From the IMG/VR virus record IMGVR_UViG_3300028802_000001, positions 1 through 64,000 of that record: a stretch of 64,000 bases of DNA; one strand, 5' to 3'. The notes under the pieces are model-generated. The model had not been told where the DNA came from. It did no database searches and saw only the letters and a program-made list of their open reading frames with translations. Below, in pieces: positions 3,261 through 36,200 of this stretch. Numbering within the stretch: position 1 is the first letter of the stretch; each line of letters starts with the position of its first letter. The translations under genes were made by a program, and so were the position numbers. The DNA is from a virus.

Positions 3261-3294
3261 GGGGTAACCTGCTAGTTGCATAGCAGGCTACCCC
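3261..3294. other. Strong stem-loop downstream of capsid/decoration genes
   Basis: GGGGTA-A-CCTGCTA pairs with TAGCAGG-C-TACCCC around a 6-nt loop: 13 pairs with one mismatch. There is no T-run after it, so it may be an attenuator or mRNA-stabilising 3' structure for the abundant capsid messages rather than a full terminator. Confidence 0.55.
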
Positions 3295-3322
3295 TAACCA
3301 CTCAGTCTGTAAGGAGACGAGA

Positions 3323-3883
3323 ATGGCTAACGAACGTAAGCGCGTTCCGAATAGTGAACGCAAGAGAATTTCTATGGAGAGGCTGAAGGAACTGATCCAC
3401 TACAGTCCCGATACTGGATCGTTCACTCGGGTTTCCGCCGCTCGCGCCCAAATGTCTCATCTCATCGGCAAATCGGCGGGCTACATCAAGCCCGGCGGCA
3501 ACGCTGATGGCGGTGGCTATCTGATGCTGTACATCGATGGGCGCGTTTATCGTGGTCACCATGTTGCATGGTTTTGGATGACCGGAGAGTGGCCAACTCT
3601 CGATATTGACCACATCAACGATATTCGCCACGACAATAGTTGGTCCAACCTGCGTGCTGCTACGCGGTCTCAGAACATTGGGAACGCACGCATGCCTCAC
3701 GATAGTTGGTCAGGCGTCAAAGGCGCGACATGGGACAGGGCTCGTCGTCAATGGCGGGCACAGATCACATTCAATGGCAAAAACATCCACCTCGGTCGCT
3801 ATCCCACCAAGGAAGCCGCTGGCGCTGCCTACGAGGCTGCATCTCGCAAGTATTTCGGTGAATTTGCGAGGGTGTCGGCATGA
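3323..3883 (+). CDS. Second HNH homing endonuclease with AP2-like domain
   Basis: 186 residues, same architecture as the endonuclease at 902-1420: DTGSFTRV opening, HNH core DIDHINDIRHDNSWSNLRAATRSQNIGN split over residues ~93-120, and a clear C-terminal AP2 domain (GVKGATWDRARRQWRA ... HLGRYPTKEAAGAAYEAA). AAGGAGA lies upstream of ATG 3323. It overlaps the next gene by ATGA. Together with the first copy it brackets the capsid cluster. Confidence 0.9.
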   Translation: MANERKRVPNSERKRISMERLKELIHYSPDTGSFTRVSAARAQMSHLIGKSAGYIKPGGNADGGGYLMLYIDGRVYRGHHVAWFWMTGEWPTLDIDHINDIRHDNSWSNLRAATRSQNIGNARMPHDSWSGVKGATWDRARRQWRAQITFNGKNIHLGRYPTKEAAGAAYEAASRKYFGEFARVSA

Positions 3884-8286: not shown

Positions 8287-10004
8287 TGGCCAAGAGCATT
8301 CCCTTCCCAGAATGGCGGCCTGATCTGTCCGACCTCGGCACGGGGATTACGTCGATTGTCAGTGGTGTGTTGGCTCGCGCAGACGGCTATGGGCCGTTCA
8401 AGTCGCTTGTGGAATTGACTGATGCCTTGCCAAGCGCATGCCGCGGGTTCTTTTTTGCGCGACGTAGTGACGGGTCGATAGCAGCATTTGCTGGCACGGA
8501 CAAACGGCTATATCTGCTCGATAACTCGCTGTTTACTTGGACGGATGTCTCGCTTGGCGGGACGGACTATCCGACCTTGGTAACGAGCGACAATTGGCAA
8601 TTTGTGCAGTTCAATGATCTTGTGATTGCGGTCAATCAGAACACCCCACCGCAGAAGTTTACCATGGCCTCGGCCACGACGTTTGTCGATCTCCTGGGCT
8701 CGCCCCCAAATGCGAGGTTTATTGCGGTCGTAGGACAAATTCTTGTCTTGAGCGGATTGCTGTCCAACCCTCGCAGATTGCAGTGGTCCGACCTTGATGC
8801 ACCGGAGGAATGGACAGCCGGGGTCGGCACGTCTGACTTTCAGGACATGCCAGACGGAGGGTCATGCTTAAGTCTTTCGGGCGGTGACGCCTATGGGCTG
8901 TTGTTTCAGGACGAGGCCATTCGCAGCATCATCTTTGCTCCGGGCTCTCCTACGACATTTCAGATTGTCCGCATATCGACGCAGGATACCGTTTTTGCGC
9001 ACTACTCCGTCATCAATGCCGGGACGAAGACGTTTTTCCTGTCGGCGCAGGGGTTCAAGATCATCGAGTCCGGCGGAAAACCGCAGCCAATCGGTAAAGA
9101 GCGCGTTGATACGACGTTTTTCAAAGATGTTGATAAGAGTAATCTCCAGCTTTGCATTGGTGCCACGGACCCCACGGGTACCCGCATCTATTGGGCCTAC
9201 AAATCCATCCATGGTGCCGCTGGTCTGTTCGACACGATCCTCTGCTATGATTGGTCCATTGGCGAACAGGGGCGGTGGTCGAAACTTCCAATTATGGGGG
9301 AATACCTGACATCGTTTGCAAGACCTGGGGTGACATTGGAACAGTTGGATGCCGTTGCACCCACGCCATTGGATATCACCGGAGCCGCGAACAATGGCAG
9401 CGGATTGATCAGGCTCGCTCTGGCTGGTGGTTTGTCGAATTCGGACTTCAACATCGTCGGGCAGAATTTCATTGTCGTTTATGGTGTTGGCGGGACGACA
9501 GAGGCCAACGCGACGTGGCGTTTCACGGTTATCAACTCAACGCACATCGATCTGATTGGATCGACTTTTGTTCATGCCTATACGAGCGGAGGGCATATTG
9601 GTGGTTCGCTGGATGCATTGCCGTTCTCGCTCGACAGCGTGTCAAAGGCGACGGTTGCGGAACTGGCTGCTTTTTCCAGCGACCATAAACTAGGATTTTT
9701 CACGGGACTAAACATCGAGGCCGTCATTGAGACGGGAGAGCAGGATCTTGAGGGGCAGTTGGTCTTTGTGAGTGCCGCCCGTCCGATCACGGATAGCCCA
9801 GATGCGGCGGTATCGATTGGATGCCGGATTGGGCCGCAAGATACGGTGTCCTACACGCCAGAATCCCCCGTCAATAATCAGGGTCTCTGCGGGTTCACCA
9901 TTGAGACTCGCTATGCCAGGGCGAGATTGAGGATACCCGCGGAATCGGTTTGGTCATTTGCAACGTCGGTCCAGCCGCAAGTGGTGTTGGCGGGTGACAC
10001 GTAA
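8286..10004 (+). CDS. Tail hub / DNA-stabilisation-type structural protein with inserted beta module
   Basis: 572 residues. FPEWRPDLSDLGT and RADGYGPFKSL open a beta-propeller-like protein with repeated FVQFND, NARFIAVVGQILVLSG, RRLQWSD and W signatures, as in podovirus tail-needle or hub proteins of the P22 gp10 kind. An ~80-residue insert (~360-440; NNGSGLIRL...VGGTTEANATW...STHIDLIGSTF..AYTSGG) is the small module often annotated as ubiquitin-activating E1 FCCH-like; a relative is in the fibre at 48361-50781. The exact tail role is inferred from neighbours. Confidence 0.65.
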   Translation: MAKSIPFPEWRPDLSDLGTGITSIVSGVLARADGYGPFKSLVELTDALPSACRGFFFARRSDGSIAAFAGTDKRLYLLDNSLFTWTDVSLGGTDYPTLVTSDNWQFVQFNDLVIAVNQNTPPQKFTMASATTFVDLLGSPPNARFIAVVGQILVLSGLLSNPRRLQWSDLDAPEEWTAGVGTSDFQDMPDGGSCLSLSGGDAYGLLFQDEAIRSIIFAPGSPTTFQIVRISTQDTVFAHYSVINAGTKTFFLSAQGFKIIESGGKPQPIGKERVDTTFFKDVDKSNLQLCIGATDPTGTRIYWAYKSIHGAAGLFDTILCYDWSIGEQGRWSKLPIMGEYLTSFARPGVTLEQLDAVAPTPLDITGAANNGSGLIRLALAGGLSNSDFNIVGQNFIVVYGVGGTTEANATWRFTVINSTHIDLIGSTFVHAYTSGGHIGGSLDALPFSLDSVSKATVAELAAFSSDHKLGFFTGLNIEAVIETGEQDLEGQLVFVSAARPITDSPDAAVSIGCRIGPQDTVSYTPESPVNNQGLCGFTIETRYARARLRIPAESVWSFATSVQPQVVLAGDT

Positions 10005-34128: not shown

Positions 34129-34437
34129 ATGGCTAAGAGGAACGAAAATCATAAATGCCCACGATGCGGCTGTTCTGAAATTCGCACTATCGAAAGCCGT
34201 CCAATTGGTACAAGTGCGGAGCCGATTATACGGCGCGGTAAAAAATGCTTGGACTGCCAATACCGATGGTCAACATACGAAATGCGCGCCGAAATTTTTG
34301 ATGCGCTTCGCAGTGCGCTCAAACCCTTCTCTTTCATCCATCCGATGAAAGGTCGCGCTAGGGTCTCTGTCTCTTTGGCGAACCCAAACAACCACGACGG
34401 ATCGCCACTTGCATCAAGAAATAGTGGCCCGATCTAA
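34129..34437 (+). CDS. NrdR-like zinc-ribbon protein lacking the ATP-cone
   Basis: 102 residues. KCPRCGCSEIRTIESRPIG....IIRRGKKCLDCQYRWSTYEMR strongly resembles the zinc ribbon of NrdR (CP.CG....V.DSR....IRRRR.C..C..R.TTYE). The rest is too short for an ATP-cone, so this would be a DNA-binding zinc ribbon only. Confidence 0.68.
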   Translation: MAKRNENHKCPRCGCSEIRTIESRPIGTSAEPIIRRGKKCLDCQYRWSTYEMRAEIFDALRSALKPFSFIHPMKGRARVSVSLANPNNHDGSPLASRNSGPI

Positions 34438-34494
34438 GCCCAACACAAAATCTAGGGACTTGCACTTCTGCGTGTGAAGGCGCATAAACGAGGA

Positions 34495-34549
34495 AGCCCC
34501 GCCATGGTGGCGAGGCTCCCGTAGTCATGAGATCGATGTCAACGATCTC
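34495..34549. ncRNA. Two tandem stem-loops upstream of the ProQ gene
   Basis: First: AGCCCCGCCA / TGGCGAGGCT with loop TGG and one mismatch (34495-34517). Second: GAGATCG / CGATCTC, perfect 7 bp (34529-34549). They fill the 144-bp gap before the ProQ-like gene, where no protein is encoded. They could be a leader that ProQ itself binds, or a small RNA. Confidence 0.5.
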
Positions 34550-34581
34550 GGGGCGTGCGGGCCAAGGTGTAACAGGCACCA

Positions 34582-35043
34582 ATGGCTGAAACTCACATAG
34601 TCAAAAGCAAGCGAGCGCGCAATAGGTGCTCCCGGCACCGAAAGCTGCGTGCTATTTTTGCGCACCTGTTTCCCAAGGCATTTGTTCCAGAACATGCTAC
34701 GAAAAAGCCTCTAAAAATAGGCATCCATCTCGATATTAAACAGCGCCTACCGGAGATCAGGGACGATGGATTGGATGAGTTTTTGCGTGCCTATATTCGA
34801 AGCATTGGCTATCAGTCACAGCTAGTTGCTGGACGGGATCGCTATGACTTGGACGGGGAAAAATGCGGTGTTGTGGAAGAGGGCCATGAGCTTGGAGCTA
34901 GAAATCTACTTAGAATTTGGGAATCTCAAAAACAACAAAGGCTTGAGCGCGCGTTGGCAGCACGAAACGACGTGCTTCAAACTGTCGGGGCGACTGTAAG
35001 CGTCCGCCAACGTGCTGAAGGTTCGTGCGTCTGTAGCGTCTGA
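34582..35043 (+). CDS. ProQ/FinO-family RNA chaperone
   Basis: 153 residues. LRAIFAHLFPKAFVPEHATKKPLKIGIHLDIKQRLPEI...LDEFLRAYIRSIGYQSQLVAGRDRYDLDGEKCGVVEEGH has the ProQ/FinO order: L...FP..F......PLKIGI..D........ L...L..Y.....Y.......R.DL.G. Basic N-terminus, helical C-terminus. The family binds structured RNA ends and hairpins. It is followed by a strong terminator and then, after one small gene, by a large structured non-coding zone. Confidence 0.82.
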   Translation: MAETHIVKSKRARNRCSRHRKLRAIFAHLFPKAFVPEHATKKPLKIGIHLDIKQRLPEIRDDGLDEFLRAYIRSIGYQSQLVAGRDRYDLDGEKCGVVEEGHELGARNLLRIWESQKQQRLERALAARNDVLQTVGATVSVRQRAEGSCVCSV

Positions 35044-35045
35044 GT

Positions 35046-35084
35046 AAACGGGCTGCCAGCAACCGCTGGTGGCCCGTTTTGTTT
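35046..35084 (+). terminator. Strong rho-independent terminator after the ProQ gene
   Basis: AACGGGC-TG-CCAGC pairs with GCTGG-TG-GCCCGTT around AACC, followed by TTGTTT. The 12 pairs with a small internal loop make it one of the clearest terminators in the window. Confidence 0.82.
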
Positions 35085-35100
35085 GATCGAGGATAGGGCT

Positions 35101-35316
35101 ATGCAAAAAATACACATCACAGAGGCCCGTAGGATCGCTGAGCGGATCGGCGCGGATCAAGTGATTATAATCGCCTTCAGCGCGGAACGCTTTGCGGTCA
35201 CGAGCTACGGCACAACCAAGGAACTGTGTGCTGACGCTGGACGATGGGTAGACCAAATCTGCGCTAATCTGGAAGGCGGCACGATGAAACCGCCAACTGT
35301 TTGGCCTAATATGTGA
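35101..35316 (+). CDS. Small unknown protein
   Basis: 71 residues from ATG 35101 (GAGGAT upstream). KIHITEARRIAERIGADQVIIIAFSAERFAVTSYG then ELCADAGRWVDQICANLEGG; the strand-helix pattern recalls small phage proteins of unknown role. It separates the terminator from the structured RNA-like zone. Confidence 0.5.
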   Translation: MQKIHITEARRIAERIGADQVIIIAFSAERFAVTSYGTTKELCADAGRWVDQICANLEGGTMKPPTVWPNM

Positions 35317-35330
35317 ATTTTGCGTTTGTG

Positions 35331-35856
35331 CGGGAGGTCTGGTCGCCCCGGTACTCCCGAAGTTGGCCGCCACTGACGGGGACAATCCTTGCGGTGGCGG
35401 CCAGCGCCCTACCCGCGGTAGATGCCCGGCCCATGGCCGATTGAGTGTCTAGCGGCTCTTTCTGAGGGTTGGTTGCCCCTAGGCGCAGCCGACGGCTCCC
35501 GCCGGTCTTACCCGACGGCCCCGAGGTCTGCTCGACCAAAAGGGACAAACGGCTTCCAGCGCCAATGCTGGTAGCACCCACGGCGTACTTCGTGGGTCCC
35601 CTGCGGGTTTCGGCCCGCGCCTTTCCCGGCCGGTTACCGTCACACCAGACGGTAGCCGGTCTAACGCCCGATAGTTTTGGGCAGGGTAGCGGCTTGGCCC
35701 CACGATACGGGGCGGGGCGATTAAAACGGGAGCGGAAGCAGAGTTTCCTACGGGGATACACAACCCAGTGTATCCGTACCTACCGTTATTCCACCGCTGG
35801 TTCCTCGACAAGGGAGCAAGCAAGAGGAAGCAGCGGGTAGGGTAGGAATAACGGGT
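35331..35856 (+). ncRNA. Candidate large ornate non-coding RNA
   Basis: No credible gene in 35317-35885, but stems follow one another: CGGGAG 35331/CTCCCG 35354; TGGCCGCCAC 35364/GTGGCGGCCA 35394 (10 bp); CGGCC 35427/GGCCG 35435; CCAGC 35556/GCTGG 35667-type pair at 35567; ACCCACG 35576/CGTGGGT 35591; GCGGG 35603/CCCGC 35614; 12 bp 35630-35641/35648-35659 with one G-T; GCCC 35666/GGGC 35679; GCCCC 35697/GGGGC 35709; GGATACAC 35754/GTGTATCC 35768; and a 10 + 12 bp interrupted helix 35783-35854. Loop AACCCA (35762) could pair with TGGGTT (35857) as a pseudoknot. Strand is assumed from neighbours. An origin or packaging site is an alternative. Confidence 0.55.
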
Positions 35857-35885
35857 TGGGTTGGACCTATGGGAGAATGTGAATC

Positions 35886-36200
35886 ATGAGCCGCATGAAT
35901 TATTCCAGACCATTTTTCCGGGTTCAGGGGCGGGAGACGGTGGATATTCACGAGGAGAGAAAGTTAGAGCGATTAGCGGATGAGTATTTGCGTGAGCATG
36001 AGCCTCGTTATTGGCCCAAGCCAAAAAAACCAAAACCCAAAAAACATAATCGCCACCATCGTCATCCGTTCGATCTTGTGACAGCGGTGGAGGACGACGT
36101 TCGCGACATAGCTACGGACAAATTTTTCAACACGCCGGAAACCGTGCAGGCCGAGGTTGATCGTCGGTTGGCGTGGCATCGTGAAACTGGGAGATTGTAG
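35886..36200 (+). CDS. Small basic unknown protein
   Basis: 104 residues. Charged helix (DIHEERKLERLADEYLREHEP), then a Lys/Pro/His-rich stretch (PKPKKPKPKKHNRHHRH) and an acidic helical end. The basic segment could contact nucleic acid. It starts 30 bp after the structured zone and is directly followed by the helicase. Confidence 0.5.
   Translation: MSRMNYSRPFFRVQGRETVDIHEERKLERLADEYLREHEPRYWPKPKKPKPKKHNRHHRHPFDLVTAVEDDVRDIATDKFFNTPETVQAEVDRRLAWHRETGRL

Follow-up and report, generated by a model that had tools for sequence, protein, structure and literature searches.

Few large structured RNAs have been described in phages, and their functions are unknown; those that have been characterized form RNA-only cages. 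Among them GOLLD and ROOL (Rumen-Originating, Ornate, Large) are RNAs of phages and prophages that are often located near tRNA islands and that form such cages, the function of ROOL being unknown (PMC12286853). FinO/ProQ proteins, for their part, do bind some processed phage RNAs that lack terminators (PMC9977716). The candidate RNA described here, about 545 nt of the + strand between two small genes of a soil phage (35331-35874), shares with ROOL that it is phage-encoded, several hundred nucleotides long, rich in stems and non-coding, and with GOLLD that it is a large structured RNA of the sort found in phages and prophages (PMC12286853). It differs from ROOL in having no Rfam match, no tRNA island and no known conserved family. 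GOLLD RNAs are often longer than 800 nt, are found near tRNAs and possess a conserved 3′ region, and the candidate RNA shows none of these features. With the FinO/ProQ-dependent RNAs of phages and plasmids it has in common a FinO/ProQ gene in the same early region, from which, however, a terminator and a further gene separate it.

The window, by which we mean the whole stretch of DNA that was analysed (64,000 nt), comprises nearly all of an IMG/VR phage record of 64,832 bases. The major capsid protein (1427-2563) is 49% identical to its counterpart in Rhizobium phage RHph_Y1_10 and, among the 80 listed of 140 matches, 54-75% identical to proteins of IMG/VR contigs, several of which are records of 60-70 kb. 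In the early region, whose + strand carries the candidate RNA, genes for RusA (32679), a Mom-like protein (33396), an NrdR-like zinc ribbon (34129) and a ProQ/FinO protein are followed in turn by a terminator, a 70-aa gene, the candidate RNA, a 104-aa gene and a DEAD-type helicase gene (36201). The RNA is tightly fitted into this order, starting 15 nt after one stop codon and ending 12 nt before the next start. The 104-aa product matched no family in Pfam or PHROG, its gene was not present in the relatives examined, and neither of the two small genes had matches among phages. No promoter or terminator belonging to the RNA itself was recognized, the promoter scan having used a sigma-70 consensus that may not fit the host.

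The interval between the 70-aa and 104-aa genes scores as non-coding and has an elaborate predicted fold. All frames of more than 60 aa within it, on either strand, had negative codon scores, and the adjoining genes (70-aa, 104-aa and helicase) scored positive; the absence of a credible ORF noted in the first-pass annotation therefore holds, despite chance frames of 114-151 aa. The codon test is weak on its own, since the real ProQ and NrdR-like genes score slightly below zero. The GC content of the region (63.5%) is higher than that of the whole window (56.4%) or of the neighbouring genes (53%), and elevated GC is frequent in structured RNAs. On the + strand 35331-35880 has a minimum free energy (MFE) of −290.3 kcal/mol, where 100 dinucleotide-shuffled sequences averaged −238.7 ± 6.7 (z −7.7). 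A second, independent set (200 shuffles) gave z −6.9, and none of the 300 shuffles matched the stability of the native sequence. The fold contains 15 hairpin loops compared with 10.5 ± 2.1 in 200 shuffles, and 89% of the predicted pairs are kept when 250 nt of flanking sequence is included on each side. The two best 200-nt windows in the 64 kb, scanned on both strands, are 35501-35700 and 35551-35750 (+). Folded as the minus strand the same region reaches only z −3.0. The structure of the stretch is thus more than chance, and its preference for one strand is what would be expected of an RNA, unlike a DNA palindrome.

In its predicted architecture (see the table) the RNA would begin with a pair of independent 5′ hairpins, continue through a small branched module and end in a domain of 378 nt that a long-range helix closes. 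The 5′ module gave z −1.1 and −2.2 in the 200-nt windows that start at 35401 and 35451 respectively. For the 378-nt domain, 17 end-to-end pairs were reached by none of 300 shuffles and, elsewhere in the phage, by 3 of 212 windows. The four long hairpins proposed in the first-pass annotation are all present: 10-nt perfect inverted repeats at 35364-73/35394-403, 12-nt arms at 35630-41/35648-59 whose one DNA mismatch is a G-U pair, 8-nt arms at 35754-61/35768-75, and a 10-nt repeat at 35783-92/35845-54 combined with a 13-nt repeat (92%) at 35794-806/35824-36. Its extent of about 520 nt was right in taking the region as structured and has to be enlarged at the 3′ side, the end falling near 35874 because 35855-35874 pairs with 35497-35516. 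A pseudoknot suggested there between AACCCA and TGGGTT does not rise above chance, as a complement between a loop and an unpaired segment arose in 35 of 200 shuffles; moreover TGGGTT is not free in the MFE structure, and the pseudoknot competes with the 17-bp closing helix.

Table. Features of the early region and of the predicted fold of the candidate RNA
Feature	Coordinates	Strand	Evidence or remark
ProQ/FinO-family gene	34582..35043	+	PF04352, 69.5 bits (cut-off 27), E 2.8e-19
RNA motif of ~61 nt, covarying closing stem	34952..35015	+	25 further IMG/VR contigs, covariation
Intrinsic terminator between ProQ and 70-aa gene	35046..35079	+	15-pair stem, 9 GC pairs, T-rich tail
70-aa gene, PHROG 38816 (no assigned function)	35104..35316	+	upstream of RNA; stop 15 nt before RNA
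Hairpin 1 (6 + 4 bp)	35331..35359	+	MFE fold, pair probability 0.99-1.00
Hairpin 2 (14 + 6 bp), longest local hairpin of 5′ half	35362..35405	+	pair probability 0.95-1.00
5′ module, three short stems (35413-35455, 35456-35466, 35468-35493)	35406..35496	+	weakest part of fold
Closed multibranch domain, 378 nt, with strongest hairpins	35497..35874	+	z −6.55
Long-range closing helix, 17 bp (5 + 5 + 7)	35497-35516 with 35855-35874	+	probabilities 0.85-0.98
14-bp hairpin within closed domain	35628..35661	+	pair probability 1.00
8-bp hairpin, AACCCA in loop	35754..35775	+	MFE fold, inverted repeat
Last long hairpin (10 + 6 + 6 bp, 17-nt apical loop)	35783..35854	+	MFE fold, inverted repeats
104-aa gene, downstream of RNA	35886..36200	+	codon score positive

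How exceptional such a region is can be judged from a scan that covered 1.8 Mb of DNA from related and other phages and yielded 29,546 stretches of about 500 nt. In only two independent places did the mean z fall below −3.5 while the strand difference went beyond −1.8, namely the candidate RNA and the capsid gene of one phage type represented by several contigs (L154/L157/L158); the strand difference at the RNA locus is 2.1, the standard deviation being 0.65. Equally structured stretches elsewhere were mostly long palindromes with nearly equal values on both strands (L077, L144). Since the capsid coding region reaches a similar z and asymmetry, folding statistics alone are no proof of an RNA. 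As comparable RNAs we rejected L154/L157/L158 (a structured stretch inside the capsid gene), L077 (repetitive palindromes, on both strands), L117 (a convergent terminator region) and L144 and others (signal symmetrical on both strands).

The candidate RNA could not be placed in a described class. Rfam 15 gave no match at gathering score over the window, and with permissive filters over the 700 bases of 35250-35950 the best hit (E 0.7) lay on the opposite strand and was to an unrelated sRNA; the GOLLD model had no hit at gathering score over the window and none at E ≤ 10 in 35250-35950, the ROOL model had no match in either, and ARAGORN found no tRNA or tmRNA in the window. The covariance-model check against known classes that had been recommended at the outset has accordingly returned no family. 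The likeness to GOLLD and ROOL remarked upon in the first-pass annotation survives as one of size and number of hairpins and fails as an assignment, there being no Rfam match and no tRNA. A group I or group II intron is disfavoured, the catalytic core models being unmatched in Rfam and the RNA lying between genes and not inside one. That the RNA is a diverged member of the GOLLD, ROOL, HEARO, OLE, intron, RNase P or tmRNA classes is favoured by its similarity in size and hairpin number to ROOL and GOLLD; given the Rfam and tRNA results this seems highly improbable.

Searches for homologues of the region were likewise negative. None was found by blastn in phage and plasmid collections, by nhmmer over 1.8 Mb of loci, with an exact 17-mer, or with single-sequence covariance models (121 nt and 136 nt) over 1.46 Mb; the 136-nt model, run without a positive control, found none in 40 whole records either, and blastn against 39 related phage records returned chance matches of 14-41 nt only. 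Degenerate patterns from the chance reading frames yielded no homologue in either IMG/VR or 84,980 genomes, and the helicase and ProQ as single IMG/VR queries retrieved no relatives of the locus. No homologue having been found, structure and function of the RNA stand as predictions. The relatives examined contain no comparable non-coding stretch: the interval between RusA and helicase is about 640 nt in relative G004 and holds one other gene in relative G032, in both cases without such an RNA, which marks it as an accessory part of the phage. A non-coding motif upstream of the helicase, CCTAGTGTCCC.TCTGC.GCCTGAC.ACCATTAGTGGTG, is shared by two relatives, L125 (about 9958-10000) and L114 (about 3284-3330), with further TAGTGG repeats beside it in L114; motif and repeats are possibly operators. 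The helicase of L114 (3782-6349, record G004) has an open frame of 863 codons, and an insertion of about 1 kb interrupts its similarity to the helicase of the window, so that an intein is probable.

The assignment of the ProQ/FinO gene is firm, and the domain covers residues 21-120 of the product. The adjacency of this gene to the RNA proposed in the first-pass annotation is correct as to the gene and has to be qualified as to the distance, a terminator and the 70-aa gene intervening, and the link between the two is one of position. A second locus with both ProQ and the candidate RNA was not found among the relatives. The terminator-like hairpin with a 3′ U tail that characterizes FinO/ProQ ligands was found neither within the RNA nor behind it; the one + strand terminator recognized near it is that upstream of the 70-aa gene. 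On the 5′ side of the ProQ gene, 34440-34580 is non-coding and folds moderately well (z −3.0 for 34401-34600); its minus strand carries a terminator-like hairpin (34520-34492).

The likeliest reading, to which we lean tentatively, is that this region specifies a single RNA of about 545 nt that is not translated, is produced from the + strand within the early transcription unit and has been selected for its fold. Such an RNA would be released from the early transcript, by cleavage or by termination, as a stable species and would act in trans as a kind of scaffold, in the manner of other large phage RNAs. Alternatively, the RNA might remain in the early mRNA as a cis-acting leader controlling translation or stability of the 104-aa and helicase genes behind it, the folded 378-nt domain burying the ribosome-binding site in its outer stem. 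The close spacing to the flanking stop and start codons, the lack of a terminator after the RNA, and the contact of the GGGAG ribosome-binding sequence of the 104-aa gene (35871-35875) with the outermost closing stem, whose 3′ strand (35870-35874) overlaps it with a pairing probability of 0.77-0.98, would all suit a leader. This ribosome-binding site is paired even without the 5′ part of the domain, however, so that its burial is not specific, while 545 nt is far above the usual size of a leader and the gene to be controlled belongs to no known family and is not found in the relatives examined; control in cis is accordingly somewhat unlikely.

A further alternative is that the structure belongs to the DNA or is accidental, the region being a hairpin-rich accessory insertion with no selected RNA, such as a mobile-element remnant or a site of recombination or replication. 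The position among accessory genes (Mom, the NrdR-like zinc ribbon and ProQ) between RusA and helicase, the short or differently filled interval in G004 and G032, the lack of a homologue in any collection searched and the nearby helicase gene, where replication signals may lie, are consistent with this explanation. The strand difference at the locus speaks against it, the DNA palindromes of L077 and L144 having roughly equal z on both strands, as do the lack of a plasmid match and the lack of a GC-skew turn at the site, a replication-origin signature in the skew having been rejected; we consider a DNA-level or accidental structure unlikely.

The second RNA element of this region, the motif of about 61 nt at the end of the ProQ gene, came from the ProQ search, in which two contigs were matched through a conserved nucleotide element and not through protein homology. 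Pattern scans located its core in 25 IMG/VR phage contigs, with copies in L149-L156 and L159-L173 (for example L156 1333-1396 and L162 1892-1955) and usually one copy per phage in whole records; the exact 27-base core pattern occurs in none of 84,980 bacterial and archaeal genomes. In 23 distinct copies, both-side changes affect all seven pairs of the 7-bp outer stem P1 and three of the six pairs of P2, giving compensatory changes at ten pairs in two helices in total, and 99% of cells pair. The covariation score is 0.53; shuffles give 0.12 ± 0.02, and slid partners no more than 0.11. P3 and UCAAACUGUCGGGRCGACUGUAAGCG are invariant, partly because the core served as the search pattern. The motif is mostly intergenic, as a rule with 20-60 nt between it and the start codon that follows, and the genes that follow are mostly virion genes, among them those for portal, tail sheath, major head and head-closure proteins. 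Rfam has no match for it, and its sequence was not found in the literature searched. We regard the motif as a real and apparently new phage-specific structured RNA, a finding that is firmer than that for the 545-nt RNA. As to its role, it may be a ribozyme, a late-gene regulator or a processing signal. In the window the motif overlaps the last ProQ codons, with the terminator and the 70-aa gene behind it, so that the last residues of ProQ are encoded by a conserved RNA element which in other phages examined lies mostly between genes. In L158 a tRNA-like sequence recognized by eye (about 1535-1605), with a CAT anticodon region and an end resembling CCA, is found between the capsid gene and the one preceding the motif.

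That the 545-nt RNA represents a new large ornate class, unrelated to GOLLD and ROOL, accessory in a lineage of soil podovirus-like phages and possibly served by ProQ/FinO, is unlikely. If true, another class of large RNA in soil phages, with an RNA chaperone gene nearby, would offer a fresh system in which to address function. The 61-nt motif matters independently: it is phage-specific, its compensatory changes are clear and its core is nearly invariant, and its position ahead of genes for portal, sheath, capsid and head-closure proteins in unrelated phages is as would be expected of a ribozyme, a regulator or a signal for processing of late genes.
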